Shown piece by piece: positions 12,228 through 22,321 of a stretch of DNA of 64,000 nucleotides (its first letter is position 1; the number at the start of each line of letters is the position of its first letter). A program made the position numbers and the translations under genes. The notes under the pieces are model-generated. The model did not search any database and was not told the origin of the DNA. It saw only the letters and a list, made by a program, of their open reading frames with translations. Location: contig JAFLSQ010000006.1 in NCBI GenBank assembly GCA_022510865.1, positions 1 to 64,000 of the forward strand, in the 5' to 3' direction. This DNA is from Treponema sp. GTDB lineage: Bacteria; Spirochaetota; Spirochaetia; Treponematales; Treponemataceae.

Positions 12228-12303
12228 CGCCTTATAATAATTAAAATGAGAGAATGCTACTAGTAAATTTCGTCTTTTAGTGTTAAAATTACCGGGATTT
12301 TTT

Positions 12304-12795
12304 ATGAACACGATTTTGCCAACTTTCAGAGAACAAATGCACCTGTTTTTCAGGAATCAGGTTCTTCTCTCATGTATTTTCAGCTGGTTCGGGGCGCAGT
12401 TTCTTAAAACAGCGATAAACCTCATTTACGGCAGGATTCATTCTCTTGGCGAGCTTTTTGAGATGATGATATGGCGCACCGGAGGAATGCCGTCCAGCCA
12501 CTCCGCGCTTGTGACATCTTTGTGCACTACAATCGGATTCAAGGACGGCATCCATTCTGATATTTTCATCCTGTCGCTGTGCTTTTTCCTCGTCGTGATA
12601 AGGGATGCCTTCGGAGTCCGCAGGTCAAGCGGAATCCAGACAAAAAAGCTCAACGAGATTGGCAGGGAACTGGACGAGAAAAAAATTCTTGACCACTACG
12701 AGACTATGAAAGAGGTGAACGGGCACACGCCGATGGAAGTGCTCTGCGGATGCATTCTGGGATTTTTCATCGCCCTGGCGTTCTCGCTTCTGTGA
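12304..12795 (+). CDS. divergent PAP2-family/DUF212 membrane protein
   Basis: GGMPSSHSALVTSLCTTIG and DAFGVRR; HTPMEVLCGCILG. Confidence 0.85.
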   Translation: MNTILPTFREQMHLFFRNQVLLSCIFSWFGAQFLKTAINLIYGRIHSLGELFEMMIWRTGGMPSSHSALVTSLCTTIGFKDGIHSDIFILSLCFFLVVIRDAFGVRRSSGIQTKKLNEIGRELDEKKILDHYETMKEVNGHTPMEVLCGCILGFFIALAFSLL

Positions 12796-12799
12796 TATT

Positions 12800-14176
12800 A
12801 TGAGAAGATATTTAAAAATTGCCGCGCCGGTCATAACTCTGCTGTCTCTTGCAATAATATTCGCGCTGAGGACGTTGCCGGCGGGCAAATTATGGAAAGA
12901 ATACGCTGTGATTTACGTTCCGTCAGACTCATCCGACGCTGACGCGATGCAGGCCATCTCTGATGCCGGGATAAACGGGGCGGTGTCGCTTTCCGGGCAG
13001 TTCCTGCCATCAAACCTGACGCAGAATTCAATCGAATACTCAATTTATAAAATCCGTGCGGATTCCCCGGCTTCGGACTACATTCAGAAACGCGCGGCCT
13101 ATTTTTTTGACCGCACGCGCAATTACAGGCTTTATTACATTCCGTCCGCGGAAAAATCAAAAATCCCGGACGCACTCTCGAATCTGTCCGCGCGCTCAAT
13201 CGCCGGCGGAGCCGATATATCGGCATCCTATCCGTGGATTCTGCCGCTGATATCCGCACTGCTTGTGATTGTCCTCGCTTTTTTCTCAAAGAACAGGATG
13301 ATTTTCCTTGCCTCCGCGCTCATTCCGGTCGCGAACCTTTTCTGCAATCCGTTTTACCAGATGGCGGAGGCAACCTGCCTTATTCTGCTCTGCCTTTTTT
13401 TCATCTCCAACGTGTGGCGCAGGAAAGGCGCGGGCAAGTATCTTCTCGGAAACCATTCAGTGCCCGCAATGATTATCGTTGCCGTGCTCTGCGCGTTCAC
13501 CTGCGCTCCAAAATCAGGGGCAATGCTGATTGTCGCCCTTTTTGGCACAGCCTGCGGCCTGCTCTCAATCTACGAGGCGGAGCGATTCTTCGAGTCAAAA
13601 TCATCGTTCGTTCCGGTGTATATCCGGCCGGCAAAAAAAATCCCCGTATCGGGCAAAAACGCCGCCACCACGACGGGAACTGCCGCCGCTTCCGCGCTGA
13701 TAATTCTCGCCGTGATTCTGATTTCATCGCTCGGAACAAAAGGCGCGAAATCATCATCAAGGATTTTCCTGCCCGCCAACGCACACGCGGACGAGTCGCT
13801 CGGTCAGCTGGAGGATTTTTACCGCTGGACGTGGGATTTCCGGACTGCGCCCTACCGCTCGCTGAACAAAGCCCAGGATGACTTTTTTGTGGAATTCCCA
13901 AGGTTCACCGAAAACAACGGGACAATCGCACAGACGAACGTCATAATGTCCTATGACCAGAATTTCCGGGATTCAGCATACGACGGCATAGATGACTTCG
14001 GCTTTGAGTCAATAGAGAAAGTGCTGAAATCAGAAGGGAAGGATTTCAAGGGCGGATATTCGGTCACAAATTCATACCCAGTCGGTCTGCTCGGCGTAAT
14101 TATGAGCCTGATTTGCGTTTTTGTATTACTTTTTCTTTATGTTTCCACTATTATTAGGAAAGGGATAAAAAAATGA
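12800..14176 (+). CDS. multi-pass membrane protein of unknown function, coupled to the Rnf-like operon
   Basis: Multiple TM segments; ATGA 4-nt overlap with the downstream rnfC-like gene. Confidence 0.6.
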   Translation: MRRYLKIAAPVITLLSLAIIFALRTLPAGKLWKEYAVIYVPSDSSDADAMQAISDAGINGAVSLSGQFLPSNLTQNSIEYSIYKIRADSPASDYIQKRAAYFFDRTRNYRLYYIPSAEKSKIPDALSNLSARSIAGGADISASYPWILPLISALLVIVLAFFSKNRMIFLASALIPVANLFCNPFYQMAEATCLILLCLFFISNVWRRKGAGKYLLGNHSVPAMIIVAVLCAFTCAPKSGAMLIVALFGTACGLLSIYEAERFFESKSSFVPVYIRPAKKIPVSGKNAATTTGTAAASALIILAVILISSLGTKGAKSSSRIFLPANAHADESLGQLEDFYRWTWDFRTAPYRSLNKAQDDFFVEFPRFTENNGTIAQTNVIMSYDQNFRDSAYDGIDDFGFESIEKVLKSEGKDFKGGYSVTNSYPVGLLGVIMSLICVFVLLFLYVSTIIRKGIKK

Positions 14177-15492
14177 GCATGAGCATTCCGGCAGTATCTT
14201 CTGCACTCAAAAACTATTCTTCCTCGCAGAATTCTTTCATCTCAAAATTCGTGACGATTCCGCTTGCGCAGGAATACGGACGCTCATACCGCGCGCTTGT
14301 GAAGGCGGGGGACAGAGTTCAGGAGGGCGACAGGATTGCGGTCTGCAACACCGGCGGACACTCCACATACATTCACGCATCTGTTCCCGGCGAGGTCACA
14401 GAAATCTGCTCGTGCATCCTTCAGAACGGAAGGCAGGAATTCGCAATCAGAATAAAATTCGGGGGAAGCTTCAAATATCTGGGGAAAATCGCGGAGGAGG
14501 CGAGCGCAGATTCTCTAAGCCCGCTTTCTGTCACCGAATCTCTTTTTGATAAGGGCGTGGTCAACACGTTCACGTCAAGCCATCCCGAGAGCCTTGGCCT
14601 GCAAATCAGAATGATTAAAAGCTGCCGGTGCATTGTAGTCAGAATGTTCGATGAGGATCCGTACTGCATGACCGACTCGCTTGTGACAAAATTTTATTTT
14701 GAGAGAATCGTGAGCGCGGCAAAAGTGATTGCAAGGACTCTGAATGCAGGAATGATTCTTCTTGCCATAGACCAGAAAATGCAGGACAAACCGCTCGCGA
14801 AGTCTTTTGAGAGCGACACGGTGCGGCTCCTTGAGATGAACATAAGCCGATATCCGTGCGGCACTCCGGGCGAGATGATTGCGGCTCTTGCCAAAAGCGG
14901 CCCGAAAAAATCGCAGGATATAACGCTTTGCGCGCAGGATTTGTTCATAGACGCATCGTCCATGCTGGAAGTCTACAACGCCGTCCTGCTCGACACGCCC
15001 GCAATCTCGCGGAACGTGCATTTCTCGGGGAACTGCCTCTGGTCATCCTGCATTCTGAATGTAAAAGTCGGCACCCCGATCAAAGATATTGTCGCGCAGC
15101 TTGGAGGATTCGCAAAGCCGCCCGCGCTTGTGATTGTGAACGGGGAGCTGTGCGGCTCATCGGCGCAGAATCTTGAGCAGCCGGTAACAAAGGACATAAA
15201 ATCCGTGAGGTTCGTCTCATCAAGGAAATTCACGGACGAGCAGATTTATTCCTGCGTGAGCTGCGGGCACTGCCGCCACATCTGCCCGGCACGAATATCG
15301 CCGGATCTGATTTACAGCGCCGTGCTCGGGGAGACCGCCCTTGACGAGACGCTGGAGAAATCGGTGATGATATGCAGCTCGTGCGGACTTTGCAGCACTG
15401 TCTGCCAGGCAAGGCTTCCGCTGTCGCACACAATCACCGTGCTGAGAGAGAATATTCAGAGCAATTCCGCGCAATGGAGCATACAGGACTGA
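14173..15492 (+). CDS. RnfC-like subunit
   Basis: Two CxxCxxxC clusters CVSCGHCRHICPARISP and CSSCGLCSTVCQARLPLS; VNGELCGSSAQNLEQPVTKDI; first gene of an Rnf-order operon. Confidence 0.8.
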   Translation: MSMSIPAVSSALKNYSSSQNSFISKFVTIPLAQEYGRSYRALVKAGDRVQEGDRIAVCNTGGHSTYIHASVPGEVTEICSCILQNGRQEFAIRIKFGGSFKYLGKIAEEASADSLSPLSVTESLFDKGVVNTFTSSHPESLGLQIRMIKSCRCIVVRMFDEDPYCMTDSLVTKFYFERIVSAAKVIARTLNAGMILLAIDQKMQDKPLAKSFESDTVRLLEMNISRYPCGTPGEMIAALAKSGPKKSQDITLCAQDLFIDASSMLEVYNAVLLDTPAISRNVHFSGNCLWSSCILNVKVGTPIKDIVAQLGGFAKPPALVIVNGELCGSSAQNLEQPVTKDIKSVRFVSSRKFTDEQIYSCVSCGHCRHICPARISPDLIYSAVLGETALDETLEKSVMICSSCGLCSTVCQARLPLSHTITVLRENIQSNSAQWSIQD

Positions 15493-15494
15493 AA

Positions 15495-16574
15495 ATGAGC
15501 AAGAGAGAATTTGACGACTATAAAATCAAGGAGAGGCAGCTGGCGGTCAGTCCGTTCATATACAGCGCGCCGTCAATATCATCCATATCAATCAGGTTCA
15601 TTGTGCTCCTGTCGCTGCAGGTCCTTATGCTTGCGCTCACAGGCTCGTACAAATCGCTGATAATTGTGCTGTGCTCGCTGGCAGGCTCGCTTGCGGCCGC
15701 CGCGCTCAGCTATTTTATCCGCAGATACGAGCGTTACCAGATTATGAGCATCGCGATTCAGGGGCTGATAATCGGCCTTCTGATTCCGGAGGGATATCCG
15801 CCGGTCCCGGTTTTCTTCATCTCTTTTCTGACGCTTTTTTTCTCGCGGATGCTTGTCTTCAAGGGCGTGAGCACATGGCTGAACATGAGCGCGTTCGCGG
15901 GGATTGTCGCGTGGATAATCGGGCGTAGCTATTTTCCGCCGTTCCTCGTGAATTCCGAGATTGCGGCGCTCGGGAACAGCTCGGTGTATCTTCTGCAGAA
16001 CGGGATATTCCCCATCCATCACTTTGACAACGCGGTGACATCGTTTCTGAATTCCACGGTTTTCTCGGTTTTCCGCGTCACAGTTCCGGAGGGATTTGTG
16101 AGCCTTCTCTGGGATTCCAGAAGCGCGATTCCGGCGTTCCGCTTCACGCTCCTGACGATTGTCTCGTCAATCATAGTTTTCTCGGACAACACGTTCTCCG
16201 GAATAATCCCGTCGGTTTTCCTCCTGACCTACACGCTGCTTGTCAGGCTGTTCGCCCCGATGTTCTTCGGCGGGCTGATAAATCAGGGGGATGTGATTCT
16301 CGCGCTCTCATCAAGCGGAATTCTTTTCTGCACGGTTTTTATGATACAGTGCTTCGGGACAGTTCCTGTGACGGTATCCGGGAAGGTAATCTCCGCGCTC
16401 TGCATGGGAGTCTGCGCGTTCCTCATCATAGGCTGCGGCACATCTCCAATCGGGATGATGTACACAATCCTCATAAACAACGTAATCACGCTGTTCATCC
16501 GCTCGGCAGAGGAGCAGAAAAATCGCTCTGACATATCCAAAGTCGTGTCAAATGCATCAGGAGCAGGAATATGA
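15495..16574 (+). CDS. RnfD/NqrB-like membrane subunit
   Basis: MSKREFDDYKIKERQLAVSPFIYSAPSIS; C-terminal DVILALSSSGILFCTVFM...GMMYTILINNVITLFIR matches the RnfD C-terminus. Confidence 0.75.
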   Translation: MSKREFDDYKIKERQLAVSPFIYSAPSISSISIRFIVLLSLQVLMLALTGSYKSLIIVLCSLAGSLAAAALSYFIRRYERYQIMSIAIQGLIIGLLIPEGYPPVPVFFISFLTLFFSRMLVFKGVSTWLNMSAFAGIVAWIIGRSYFPPFLVNSEIAALGNSSVYLLQNGIFPIHHFDNAVTSFLNSTVFSVFRVTVPEGFVSLLWDSRSAIPAFRFTLLTIVSSIIVFSDNTFSGIIPSVFLLTYTLLVRLFAPMFFGGLINQGDVILALSSSGILFCTVFMIQCFGTVPVTVSGKVISALCMGVCAFLIIGCGTSPIGMMYTILINNVITLFIRSAEEQKNRSDISKVVSNASGAGI

Positions 16575-17032
16575 GAGAGCCAATCTCATACAAGAAATTT
16601 TTCATGAATTACGGGATTTTTGTCGGGATTCTTGCGGTCCTGATGGGGCTTCTGGTCTATGTCACAAAAATCACGCAGAGAAGCTGGTCAAAGAACCTGA
16701 GGAAGAGCGTGGAGCTTGTGCTTGACGAGGCCGAGCCGAGCACCTGGTTTGTCACGAACGAGCTTAGAATCAGCAATGCGTTCACGCTGAGCGCAGCCTG
16801 CTACGAGGCGCGCAACAAAAAGGACGGACAGATTTACAAGGCTGTGATTATCAGCACGCAGACAATTTACGGGCCGGTTCCGTCCGTCTTCACGGTTGAC
16901 AAGGACGGTCAGGCAAGGTTCATGGGCTACAGCAATGTGCACGGCCGCGTCCAGAATCAGCTGATGAGCGACACATCGAACAAGAGAATCCAGTACTGGA
17001 CAAAAAAAATCCCGTACATCATCGGGAGCTAG
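16571..17032 (+). CDS. RnfG-like subunit lacking the SGAT flavinylation motif
   Basis: Single N-terminal TM, periplasmic domain, position between RnfD and RnfE; IYGPVPSVFTVDKDGQARFMGYSNVHG. Confidence 0.6.
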   Translation: MREPISYKKFFMNYGIFVGILAVLMGLLVYVTKITQRSWSKNLRKSVELVLDEAEPSTWFVTNELRISNAFTLSAACYEARNKKDGQIYKAVIISTQTIYGPVPSVFTVDKDGQARFMGYSNVHGRVQNQLMSDTSNKRIQYWTKKIPYIIGS

Positions 17033-17041
17033 GAGGGCAAA

Positions 17042-17662
17042 ATGCGAATGATTGAGAGAGACCTGTTCTTCAAATATCTTCCCCTGCACATCGTGCTCAT
17101 AATCCCGATTCCCGGCCGATTCGTGTTCGGCATCACGATTGTGCTTGAGCACATCCTGCTGACGCTCGTCGGAACGCTCATAAATTCCCTTGTGGACACG
17201 CTCAGGCTCAAGGAGCTTAAGACCGTGATTATAATGCTCGCGATTATCAGCGCATCTGTCCTTTTCCGCCAGATTCTCGTGGTCACTTACACAGAAATCG
17301 CGCTGACGCTCGGCTATCTGATTTTTCTGCCGGCGGTATCGCTTTTTCTCATCCAGATTGTCTACTCGGATCTGGAGAATCCGCTCGGTGTGCGGCTCAG
17401 GGAGAATCTGATTCAGACCGCGGTTTTCTCGGTCGGCACTCTGATTCTTTTTCTTTTCCGGGACATCGCGGGCTACGGGACTTTCACGTTCTACTCAAAG
17501 AATCACACGTTCTCGGAGAAAATTCTTTTTGAGCGGGAGAGCGCGGGAATCCTATCGTTCTTCGCGACATTGCCGGGCATCCTGCTGATTGTCGCGCTGA
17601 TGCTTTTCGCAAGCCTGCGGTTCCACGAGAAAATCAACCGGGAATTCGGAGAGTCAAAATGA
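17042..17662 (+). CDS. RnfE/NqrD-like membrane subunit
   Basis: Multi-TM; LGYLIFLPAVSLFLIQIVYSDLENPLG...FRDIAGYGTFTF matches the RnfE layout; no cysteine in the protein. Confidence 0.65.
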   Translation: MRMIERDLFFKYLPLHIVLIIPIPGRFVFGITIVLEHILLTLVGTLINSLVDTLRLKELKTVIIMLAIISASVLFRQILVVTYTEIALTLGYLIFLPAVSLFLIQIVYSDLENPLGVRLRENLIQTAVFSVGTLILFLFRDIAGYGTFTFYSKNHTFSEKILFERESAGILSFFATLPGILLIVALMLFASLRFHEKINREFGESK

Positions 17663-18222
17663 TTTACCTGCACACTTTCCTGTATTACACGGTGTTCTCG
17701 TCAATCGTCCTGTTTTATGGAATAGGGCTGAGCCAGATTTCGGTGAGCGGGGAGAGGCGTCAGAATCAGATTATCTTTTTTTTCAAGACGATGCTCTCGA
17801 TTTTCCTCACAGCGATTCTCACGTACCTTGTCGTAGCGTTCATCCTGGTTCCGCTCGCTTTGGTTGAGATTTTCCCCGTAATCTGCCTGCTGATTTTCAT
17901 AACGATAAATTCGTTCACGGAAGGCCTTGTGAGGCTCACGACCGGCACCGCGACAACAGAATTCGCGGTCTCCTTTCTGATTGTCCTGCTCTCGATTTTC
18001 CAGAGCGACACAATCCTTGACACAATGGTCATCTGCCTCAGCTGCATCTGCGGATTTCTCGTGCTCGTTCCGTTCGTGCGCGTGCTCCGGAACAGGCTTG
18101 TGATGAACGGCCGCTTTTATTTTGAGAAATACATCTGCATGCTGTTTGTGTTCCTCGCCGTCCTTCTGATGATTATCTCTGTTTTCGATATTACATGGCT
18201 GAACGGAGGCATGATAAAATGA
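17659..18222 (+). CDS. RnfA/NqrE-like membrane subunit
   Basis: Multi-TM protein of RnfA size in RnfA position; SSIVLFYGIGLSQISVSG resembles NNFVLSRFLGICPFLGVS. Confidence 0.6.
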   Translation: MIYLHTFLYYTVFSSIVLFYGIGLSQISVSGERRQNQIIFFFKTMLSIFLTAILTYLVVAFILVPLALVEIFPVICLLIFITINSFTEGLVRLTTGTATTEFAVSFLIVLLSIFQSDTILDTMVICLSCICGFLVLVPFVRVLRNRLVMNGRFYFEKYICMLFVFLAVLLMIISVFDITWLNGGMIK

Positions 18223-18836
18223 TTTTGGCGACAATCCTCCTCATACTGATTCCCCTGCTGCTCTCGCTGATTATCCTTTTCTCGTTCTACATTTTTCTGC
18301 CGTCGCTTGATGCCGGCAACCTTGACAAAGACGCGATTATATCCGAGCGTGAGAAAACGTTCTCAATCAAAAAAGAAAGCAAGGCCCAGGTCTCGGACAG
18401 GCGGGCAGTCGTGCTCTGCTCGTGCAGGAAGAGCTTTTCCACAGACAGAAGCCGCTTCAACGAGGCGTACACGTGCTATATGATAAAAAACATGAGCGAC
18501 ACAGGCACTGACTGCAAGTACGCCTGCATAGGTCACGGGGACTGCGCCCGCGCCTGTGCCCAGAACGCGATAATCATCAGAAACAGGACCGCGGTGGTCA
18601 CAAACCTCTGCTGCGGCTGCGGAAAATGCGCGCAGGTCTGCCCGCAGAAAATCATCACGCTGGTTCAGAAAGACAAGGACAGCATGATTTTGTGCGCCAA
18701 CCCGGACATCACATCGCTCACGACGTGCACGCACAGGCGCAAAGACGAAAAAATTGAATGGATTGCAAAAAAAGACTTTAAAATATGGTCGTATTGCTAT
18801 AAAATATTGGACAGGATAAATAATTTCATCAGATAG
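18219..18836 (+). CDS. RnfB-like ferredoxin subunit, short form
   Basis: N-terminal TM; RAVVLCSCRK...DCKYACIGHGDCARACAQNAI...CCGCGKCAQVCPQKIITL. Confidence 0.8.
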   Translation: MILATILLILIPLLLSLIILFSFYIFLPSLDAGNLDKDAIISEREKTFSIKKESKAQVSDRRAVVLCSCRKSFSTDRSRFNEAYTCYMIKNMSDTGTDCKYACIGHGDCARACAQNAIIIRNRTAVVTNLCCGCGKCAQVCPQKIITLVQKDKDSMILCANPDITSLTTCTHRRKDEKIEWIAKKDFKIWSYCYKILDRINNFIR

Positions 18837-18899: not shown

Positions 18900-20885
18900 A
18901 TGTGCTCGGTTCATGTTTGCTTTCATCTAAACTCACTCTCGCTGTATCCCGCCGGTGATGACACTCCCGACAAGAGAATCCAGACTGTCTACAAGCCTCT
19001 GGCAAAATTCCTTTACGCGCACCCGGAATTTCCGTTCTCAATGTCCGTAAGCGCGGAGCTTCTTCAAATCCTAAAGAAACGCAGGAACGAGCTGATTGCC
19101 GTACTCAAAGAGATGGCGGAAAGAAATCAGCTGGAGATAACAGGCGGCGCGTATCACAACGCTCCGCTGCCGCTTCTTTTCCCGGCGGACAGGAGCGCGC
19201 AGATAGAGACGCTCTCCACAGAGATAAGGCAGGCAATCGGGAAGCGTCCGCGCGGAATGACAATTTTTGCCGACGCGTGGGACTCATCCCTGATTGGAAG
19301 CCTGAGCACGAACGGGATGGAATACGTGATTCTGGACAGCAGCGTAATCCGGGGCAGCGGGGAGGCGTTCCTTGGCCTTGTGATGAGCGAGCTTGGGAAA
19401 TCCGTGGAGATTTTCCCGTCATACGCGGAATTCATCCCCAAGGCGGACACAGAGCCCAAGGACTTCATCCAGATGATAAAAAAGGCGGCCGGAAAATCGC
19501 AGAAAAAATCCCAGTACATCCAGATGGAGCCGAACCGCATGATTGTGATTTCCCTGGAGCACGAGCAGATTCTTCCGCTCATCGAGGGAAAATTCTTCGA
19601 GCGGCTTTCGGATTATCTTGCGGAGACGCAGAAAGACGCCGGAATAACGCTCAGCACGCCGGGCATTTACAGGAAAAGCGAGATTATCAGGCTTCCGGTC
19701 TATATACCGTGCGGAATAAACGGACGGCTCACCGCTCAGCGAGCGCATAATCCCGCCGCGCAAAGCATTCCGTCGTTCCAGAATTACCTTGAGCACTATG
19801 CCGAGGGATTCGCGCTCTACAGGAAAATCATTTTCACGAACACCCTTGTGAACCAGTACAAAGGCGATAAAATCAGAAAGAAATGCGCGAGGGAGAAGCT
19901 TTATCTTGCGCAGGAAGGCGGGGCTTTGATCTGGAATCCGGCGGATATTCCCGGCAACATCGCAAGAAGGCAGGCCGCATACAAGAACCTGATTGAGGCG
20001 GAGAAAATCCTTGCGGAGGATTCCGTGTTCCGCGAGACAATCACGAGCTTTGACTATGATTTTGACGGTCTCAATGAGTACGTCTGCCGGATGCGCAATT
20101 TTTTCATCATAATCTCGCTTGTGAGCGGCGCGATGACCGAGCTTGACGTTCTGAAAGGCGGTGGAAACTACGCAGACAACATGAGCCTCCGCGAGCAGTG
20201 GGATGGCGAGGACGACAGGTATCACCGGGGAATTTTCGTTGACCACGTGCTGAGCGAGGCGCAGTTCGCGAGGTACGCGGCGGGGAAATCAGCGGGAGAC
20301 GGCGTTTTCTCCAGAATCCACTACACCGAGGAGAAATACTCGCAGTCGCGCAGGGAAATCCAGATGAGCGCGAGAGCGGTCACATCAGAGGGGCAGAGTA
20401 TTTTTCTGAGGAAAAAGTATGTAATCAGCACTGACGGGCTTTACGTCCAGTACATTCTGCGCAACGAGAGCAGCAGGAAAATCGCACTGAAATTCGCGGT
20501 GGAGTCCAATCTCGCGCTCGTTTCGGCGGATGCAGGCAACGGGCGGTTCAAGCTTGAGCTGATTGACGGGGATGAGAAAATCACTGCGGACGAGAATTTC
20601 TGTGTGACCGACGCTTATTCAAAAGGAAAACTGCGTGATGTCACGACCGTGCAAATCACAGACATCAGGAACAGCGTCTCATTCGTGTTCGAGCCGAACG
20701 AGACCTGCGGATATTTTTTCAGGAACATTGAATTCAAGCGGCCCGACCTGCAGGGCAGCCTCAGGACCGCGCAGACCACGCTTGTATCGACTTTGTTCTG
20801 GGATATTGAGCTTGAGCCTGGGATGGAGACAGAGAAGAACATCAACCTTGCGATTTTCCTTGCGAAAAAGGCAAAAAAATCCTAG
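18900..20885 (+). CDS. glycoside hydrolase family 57-like (4-alpha-glucanotransferase/alpha-amylase-like) protein
   Basis: ITGGAYHNAPLPLLFPADRSAQIETL and RPRGMTIFADAWDSSLI align to GH57 motifs; REQWDGEDDRYHRGIFVDHVL resembles the C-terminal DUF1926/GH57 region. Confidence 0.75.
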   Translation: MCSVHVCFHLNSLSLYPAGDDTPDKRIQTVYKPLAKFLYAHPEFPFSMSVSAELLQILKKRRNELIAVLKEMAERNQLEITGGAYHNAPLPLLFPADRSAQIETLSTEIRQAIGKRPRGMTIFADAWDSSLIGSLSTNGMEYVILDSSVIRGSGEAFLGLVMSELGKSVEIFPSYAEFIPKADTEPKDFIQMIKKAAGKSQKKSQYIQMEPNRMIVISLEHEQILPLIEGKFFERLSDYLAETQKDAGITLSTPGIYRKSEIIRLPVYIPCGINGRLTAQRAHNPAAQSIPSFQNYLEHYAEGFALYRKIIFTNTLVNQYKGDKIRKKCAREKLYLAQEGGALIWNPADIPGNIARRQAAYKNLIEAEKILAEDSVFRETITSFDYDFDGLNEYVCRMRNFFIIISLVSGAMTELDVLKGGGNYADNMSLREQWDGEDDRYHRGIFVDHVLSEAQFARYAAGKSAGDGVFSRIHYTEEKYSQSRREIQMSARAVTSEGQSIFLRKKYVISTDGLYVQYILRNESSRKIALKFAVESNLALVSADAGNGRFKLELIDGDEKITADENFCVTDAYSKGKLRDVTTVQITDIRNSVSFVFEPNETCGYFFRNIEFKRPDLQGSLRTAQTTLVSTLFWDIELEPGMETEKNINLAIFLAKKAKKS

Positions 20886-22321
20886 CGCGCGTTCTCAGAA
20901 AGTGTTTTTATCAGCGCCTTCAGCTCGTCAAGCTTTGCGTGTGTTATCAGCGGATTCAGGAGCGTGAATTTAAGGAAAACTTTCCCGTCGCTCACAGTCT
21001 GGCCAATCACAACCCCGTGACTGTGAATCAGGGCGCGGCGCACCCGCTTGTTCACCTCATCGCAGGCGTTGTAGCGGAACACCACGGAACTGATTTCAGG
21101 CTCGCAGAGAACCTCAAAGCTGCTGTCCGCGCTCAGAATGCCGTGGAAATAGCGGGCGTTGTCCATACTTGTCTCGATAATCCGGCTCCAGCCGTCCTTT
21201 CCGCGCATCTGAAAGCTCGTCCAGACTTTCAGCGCGTCAAAACGGCGGGTTGTCTGCAAGGATTTGTCAACGAGGTTTATGTAGCCGTCCTCCTCATCCT
21301 CCTCGCGGTTAAGATAATCCGCATGGATTGTCAGGGCATCAAAATCCTCCGAGCGTCTGACCAGAAGCGCGCCGCACGAGATTGTCATCAGGAACATCTT
21401 GTGAAAGTCCACGGTGATGGAATCGCAGAGAGAAAGATTTTTGAGGCAGCCGGAATATTTGTCAGACATCACGACACCAGCGCCATAAGCGGCATCCGCA
21501 TGAAGCCACATTCCGTTCTCGTGCGCGACCTGCGCGAGCGAGTCCAGCGGGTCAATGCTGCCAAAATCAGTAGTGCCAACCGTGCCGACGATCAGAAACG
21601 GGATTTTCCCGGCTTTCCTGTCCGCCTCAACAAGCGAGCGCAGAGCCTGCGCGTCCATCCGCTTTTTTGAGTCAACAGGAACTTTCACAACCGACTGATA
21701 GCCCAGCCCGAGCACATGCGCTGATTTTTCCATGGAAAAATGCGAGATTTCGCTCGTGTACATTCTGAGCCTCGAACAATCCTCGTTAAGTCCACTTTTT
21801 TTGACATCATGTTTAAGCGCGTTGTTGCAGAACCAGTCACGCGCAAGAATGAGAGCGGTCATGTTGGACTGGCTTCCGCCGCTTGAGAAAACGCCGTCAG
21901 AGCCATCGCCATAACCAAAAAGCGAGCAGAGATGCCGCACGACATCCTCCTCAATCTCCGTGGCGACCGGCGACTGATCCCAGCTGTCCATTGACTGATT
22001 GAAAGTCGAGATGACAAGCTCGGACACCACGGACTCAAGGAGCGACGGGCCGTGCAGATGGGCCATGTAATTCACCGAGGATGTCCGCAGAAGGTTCGGG
22101 AGGATTCTCTCCCGCATCAGAGAGAAAGTGCGCTCCCAGCCAAGCCCGCTCTCCGGAAGAATCGAGTTTTGCCGGACAATCTCCCTCAGCTCATTCGGGG
22201 TGGGGCCGGAGTACGCGCTGTCATCGCAGAAAACACTGGCGATGGCATCCGCGGCCTGGGAAATCAGATTTTTATAGGCTTCCTTTGATTTTTCGTCGCT
22301 TGTAAGAAAAAAATCCTGCAT
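20882..22321 (-). CDS. PLP-dependent decarboxylase, probably L-2,4-diaminobutyrate decarboxylase
   Basis: Group II decarboxylase: VDFHKMFLMTISCGALLVR; GVFSSGGSQSNMTAL; WLHADAAYGAG; adjacent to a DABA aminotransferase-like gene. Confidence 0.8.
   Translation of the reverse strand: MQDFFLTSDEKSKEAYKNLISQAADAIASVFCDDSAYSGPTPNELREIVRQNSILPESGLGWERTFSLMRERILPNLLRTSSVNYMAHLHGPSLLESVVSELVISTFNQSMDSWDQSPVATEIEEDVVRHLCSLFGYGDGSDGVFSSGGSQSNMTALILARDWFCNNALKHDVKKSGLNEDCSRLRMYTSEISHFSMEKSAHVLGLGYQSVVKVPVDSKKRMDAQALRSLVEADRKAGKIPFLIVGTVGTTDFGSIDPLDSLAQVAHENGMWLHADAAYGAGVVMSDKYSGCLKNLSLCDSITVDFHKMFLMTISCGALLVRRSEDFDALTIHADYLNREEDEEDGYINLVDKSLQTTRRFDALKVWTSFQMRGKDGWSRIIETSMDNARYFHGILSADSSFEVLCEPEISSVVFRYNACDEVNKRVRRALIHSHGVVIGQTVSDGKVFLKFTLLNPLITHAKLDELKALIKTLSENAR

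Follow-up and report, generated by a model that had tools for sequence, protein, structure and literature searches.

A short protein without a flavinylation site at the RnfG position of a divergent, Rnf-derived operon in Treponema

Gene content of the locus

Counterparts of the Rnf subunits C, D, G, E, A and B lie together in one operon, ordered U458-rnfC-D-G-E-A-B, within the 64,000 nt stretch of Treponema sp. DNA analyzed here (hereafter, the window; Table 1). The C-D-G-E-A-B succession is shared with canonical Rnf, the ferredoxin:NAD+ oxidoreductase of A. woodii, C. tetanomorphum and A. vinelandii. C, D, E, A and B are homologous to their canonical namesakes by profile, with hhalign returning E 1.5e-25 for RnfD, E 8.5e-23 for RnfB, E 1.9e-8 (prob 95) for RnfE and E 1.1e-6 (prob 91) for RnfA, while G shares place and fold. 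On the downstream side, a pyridoxal-dependent decarboxylase gene (20885-22321, opposite strand) adjoins the GH57 gene.

Table 1. Features of the divergent Rnf-like locus, in window coordinates.
Feature	Position	Strand	Remarks
DUF212, divergent PAP2 family, conserved upstream neighbor	12280..12795	+	Also flanks the locus in G061 (taken as T. pallidum)
U458, first operon gene, 458 aa membrane protein	12800..14176	+	Two periplasmic domains, about 8 TM helices
RnfC-like, 439 aa	14173..15492	+	RnfC_N 1e-11; TIGR01945 1e-53 but under cut-off
RnfC first [4Fe-4S] motif CVSCGHCRHICP	15253..15288	+	Cluster Cys invariant in aligned divergent RnfC
RnfC second [4Fe-4S] motif CSSCGLCSTVCQ	15373..15408	+	Motif census
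RnfD-like, 359 aa, covalent-FMN SGAT site absent	15495..16574	+	PF03116 6e-25
IPAFRF, new invariant motif of divergent RnfD	16128..16145	+	Invariant columns; aligns with canonical GCMGETSILLIL
RnfG-position protein, 153 aa, no flavinylation site	16571..17032	+	One TM helix and a small periplasmic beta domain
RnfE-like, 206 aa, both [2Fe-2S] cysteines absent	17042..17662	+	Profile comparison
RnfA-like, 187 aa, both [2Fe-2S] cysteines absent	17659..18222	+	Profile comparison
RnfB-like	18195..18836	+	NF005503 9e-17; start may be 18219 by homology
GH57 / 4-alpha-glucanotransferase-like, conserved downstream neighbor	18900..20885	+	Also flanks the locus in G061

The leading gene, U458, matched nothing in Pfam or NCBIfam. 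A Foldseek search with its AlphaFold model (pLDDT 86.7) returned MmpL4 first (E 4e-4, prob 0.99), followed by MmpL3, SecDF and AcrB, with TM-scores of only about 0.3, so that the modeled fold bears a weak likeness to one half of an RND/MmpL-type transporter in truncated form. Alignment with a spirochaete MMPL profile (hhalign) was not significant and gave an RND identity no support from sequence profiles.

The RnfG-position protein

The 153-aa product had been described in a first-pass annotation as an RnfG-like protein with an N-terminal transmembrane segment and no [S/T]GAT anywhere. Both structural details hold: a TM helix is predicted at residues 7-54, and the wider pattern [S/T/A]G[A/S][T/S] does not occur in any frame of 16401-17700. 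The Pfam FMN_bind model (PF04205), which that annotation had proposed as the check on an intact S-G-A-T, does not match the protein even at E 10, nor is the protein among the matches of a whole-genome FMN_bind search. The same is seen beyond this genome, with none of 64 family members of the short RnfG matched by FMN_bind at E ≤ 1 and the flavinylation motif present in 0 of 79 named-genome orthologues. The column of the canonical FMN-threonine itself was left out of our census, given that the short protein stops before it and any alignment there is forced.

A truncated or frameshifted full-length RnfG was also considered and rejected. The reading frame is intact and ends in IIGS followed by the stop codon; its start overlaps the stop of the RnfD-like gene, the RnfE-like gene begins 10 bases downstream, and homologues in 30 congeners have open frames of 150-178 aa.

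Likeness to RnfG is borne out by gene order and by fold, not by sequence profile alone. Searching the PDB with the structure model (pLDDT 90.9) gave just four Foldseek matches at E < 0.3, all of them RnfG chains from A. vinelandii and C. tetanomorphum (prob 0.87-0.97, E 5e-3 to 2e-2, TM-scores about 0.3). The profile of the short G against canonical RnfG reached only a non-significant E of 0.055 (hhalign), a PDB sequence search with the profile of the short RnfG-like protein matched neither RnfG nor NqrC, and a bridge through the RnfG of an early-branching relative (L117, see below) was likewise not significant. Place and modeled fold thus support assigning the protein as the RnfG-position subunit.

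Cofactor sites lost and kept across the complex

Absence of the flavinylation motif is real, yet it is not peculiar to RnfG, as the complex as a whole has been stripped of nearly all its transmembrane cofactor sites. Set beside canonical Rnf, the operon of the window is missing the covalent-FMN threonine in D as well as in G, the [2Fe-2S] cysteines of RnfA and RnfE (two each), the RnfC FMN/NADH motifs (GMGGASFPAHVKL and NAAECEPYLT) and the N-terminal RnfB cluster (CGGCG..GC). RnfB is shorter than its canonical counterpart, having also lost the second ferredoxin domain and kept one 2x[4Fe-4S] ferredoxin; U458, in turn, is an addition. What remains in the window is the pair of RnfC [4Fe-4S] motifs plus the single RnfB dicluster. 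A. woodii mutants altered in the FMN-G, A/E cluster or riboflavin residues no longer reduced NAD+ in a ferredoxin-dependent manner and failed to grow on H2+CO2 (PMC11889175).

Residue counts extend this picture to the divergent family, where the RnfD FMN-threonine is found in 0 of 116 rows, the RnfC GGA motif is gone and no member has the complete four-cysteine RnfA/E set (zero of four in the window). An SGAT in the RnfD of one locus (L143) was rejected as a flavinylation site since it lies at residue 302 of 362, the wrong position.

Two sites resist this loss and lend themselves to another reading, that of a shortened electron chain in which the [4Fe-4S] clusters of RnfC (and RnfB) feed a riboflavin held non-covalently by RnfD, and this in turn a membrane-soluble or other acceptor, much as the NqrB riboflavin passes electrons to quinone. 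The cluster cysteines of RnfC are invariant (8/8) in 130 aligned divergent rows, drawn from partly overlapping sets, and the riboflavin asparagine of RnfD is retained in 75 of 77. At the second riboflavin position, Asp or Glu occupies 7 of 8 family rows from outside the window's genus, T. pallidum included, whereas within the genus Asp has given way to Trp in 69 of 77. Loss of the RnfC FMN/NADH motifs would moreover leave both donor and acceptor unaccounted for, and quinone biosynthesis is reported missing in T. pallidum (PMC7512555). A half chain ending at the RnfD riboflavin is possible, chiefly outside the window's genus; as a general account of the complex we consider it unlikely.

Treponemes with no other Rnf detected

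The genome that we take as T. pallidum (G061; 1,139,633 bp in one contig) carries an orthologous and syntenic locus, in the order GH57, A, E, G, D, C, DUF212. Its divergent RnfD is tp0151, part of what has been called a noncanonical Rnf: a published tp0151/RnfD variant at 174177 in SS14 coordinates (PMC6103504) falls in the region of the G061 D gene (173940-174908). Reduction went further here than in the window, since U458 and RnfB are also absent along with the FMN sites and the paired A/E cysteine set. Genome-wide, no PF02508 protein and no second RnfD were found, and the search for RnfB gave a sole weak match, to a ferredoxin domain within a reading frame of 1189 aa. The divergent operon is then the sole 'Rnf' of T. 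pallidum, one with neither canonical RnfA/D/E nor RnfB. An FMN_bind protein with the motif DVVTGATVSS does occur near 192 kb, consistent with TP0171, a known flavinylation substrate (PMC12052999), and therefore the T. pallidum ApbE has a client besides Rnf.

A flavin-driven RNF redox pump has been proposed for T. pallidum (PMC7512555, PMC10194888). As read from its sequence, the content of the operon conflicts with that model. The proposal could be rescued if the complex were a working, non-canonical Rnf-type redox ion pump with its flavins bound in some other way, and the conserved C-D-G-E-A subunit set is what such a pump would call for. No column of D, E or A stands out as a substitute for the lost ligands, none exceeding 68% for Cys or 51% for His; T. 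pallidum, furthermore, has no RnfB. The operon is also present in two congeners, G018 (99% complete) and G034 (96%), in which canonical Rnf, any FMN_bind protein and ApbE all went undetected. Absence from drafts is not proof, but both of these nearly complete ones agree, hinting that the divergent operon may persist independently of flavinylation. We therefore regard a non-canonical pump as improbable.

Coexistence with canonical Rnf

A complete canonical Rnf operon resides elsewhere in the window's genome (contig C68, L062:7095-12297), with DAISGATITS in RnfG, SSAT in RnfD and every A/E cysteine in place. This co-occurrence of divergent and canonical Rnf, repeated in most relatives, might suggest that the divergent complex assists the canonical one, as an accessory or in its assembly. 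Whole-genome searches detected no canonical Rnf in several nearly complete congeners (G018, G020, G028 and G034), and the divergent operon is retained in G018, G028 and G034 as in T. pallidum, with canonical RnfA/D/E undetected in all four, which makes a partnership of this kind very improbable.

Conservation and phylogeny

Seven-gene synteny extends over 30 congeners, with identities of about 22-57%; in a few of them RnfB went undetected where it should lie. Genes missing in some genomes may reflect draft assembly alone. Close pairs gave dN/dS of 0.03-0.18 (medians of more distant pairs, saturated or misaligned, were set aside), and RnfD has 62 columns conserved at ≥ 90%. Judged from these sequence comparisons, the operon is shown to be conserved and under purifying selection. 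That it consists of decaying pseudogenes, as the serial loss of cofactor sites and the disappearance of RnfB and U458 from some lineages might otherwise intimate, is a negligible prospect, given that the seven frames are open across 30 genomes, that dN/dS takes such values and that RnfD has conserved columns and a new invariant motif.

A scan of named genomes returned 165 relatives, the best 80 of which all belong to Treponema (T. bryantii, T. socranskii and T. parvum among them) or to MAGs of Spirochaetaceae, Spirochaetales or Spirochaetia. In an order-wide sample, every family genome at least 90% complete had a match at E ≤ 6e-35. All divergent sequences form one clade in the RnfC tree (SH-aLRT 100), where L117 branches first; this was a rapid reconstruction that leaves several forks open.

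Related divergent Rnf-like loci from other families of the order (L117-L134), several of them without RnfB, retain the cofactor sites to graded extents. L117 keeps VSGAT in RnfD and the full set of four A/E cysteines, and its RnfG ends in DGVAGATVTF; L121 keeps SGAT in RnfD and DALAGATES in RnfG; in some others all sites are gone. Because early-branching members of the order retain more sites, a stepwise dismantling of the electron wire is suggested, the order of its inner losses being provisional.

Discussion

The complex encoded in the window is very probably not a canonical Rnf pump and its RnfG-position subunit not flavinylated. Since covalent FMN, [2Fe-2S] and RnfC FMN/NADH residues are absent, electrons would be unable to traverse the membrane through it; and if there is no transmembrane electron transfer, there would consequently be no Rnf-type ion pumping. 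As far as sequence can tell, non-covalent flavins may still be bound.

On balance we favor, with some confidence, the reading that the 153-aa protein fills the RnfG position in a second complex derived from Rnf, one whose membrane body has been repurposed and which does not work as a ferredoxin:NAD+ ion pump. The body made of D, A and E, capped by a small G free of flavin, would have been retained for another job, and it may be gated by, or report to, the Fe-S module on the cytoplasmic RnfC (plus RnfB where present). The likeliest job, which we propose with considerable doubt, would be that of a machine that conducts ions or solutes, or serves the envelope, gated or informed by that cytoplasmic Fe-S module.

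Partial Rnf/Nqr complexes are not without precedent, as the NQR/RNF-like partial systems of a flavinylation survey (PMC8238504) are likewise incomplete. What defined them was a flavinylation gene cluster with an RnfD-NqrF fusion; the divergent Treponema complex has instead lost flavinylation. We tentatively put forward, short of holding it probable, an order-wide class of Rnf-derived complexes in Treponema and related families that have lost the transmembrane electron path and were recruited, together with the RND-like U458, for a membrane function that is non-redox or gated by Fe-S. Such a complex would be the only 'Rnf' of T. pallidum, and the flavin-driven pump proposed for that organism could not work as drawn.

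The redox chain is what defines Rnf, and a membrane body under selection without that chain raises the question of the body's own role, for whose study the divergent family offers a natural series of intermediates. Membrane energization in T. pallidum becomes testable as well, given that the complex assigned to it is missing residues on which the Rnf of A. woodii depends, and the congeners with no detected canonical Rnf raise the same question of how their membranes are energized.
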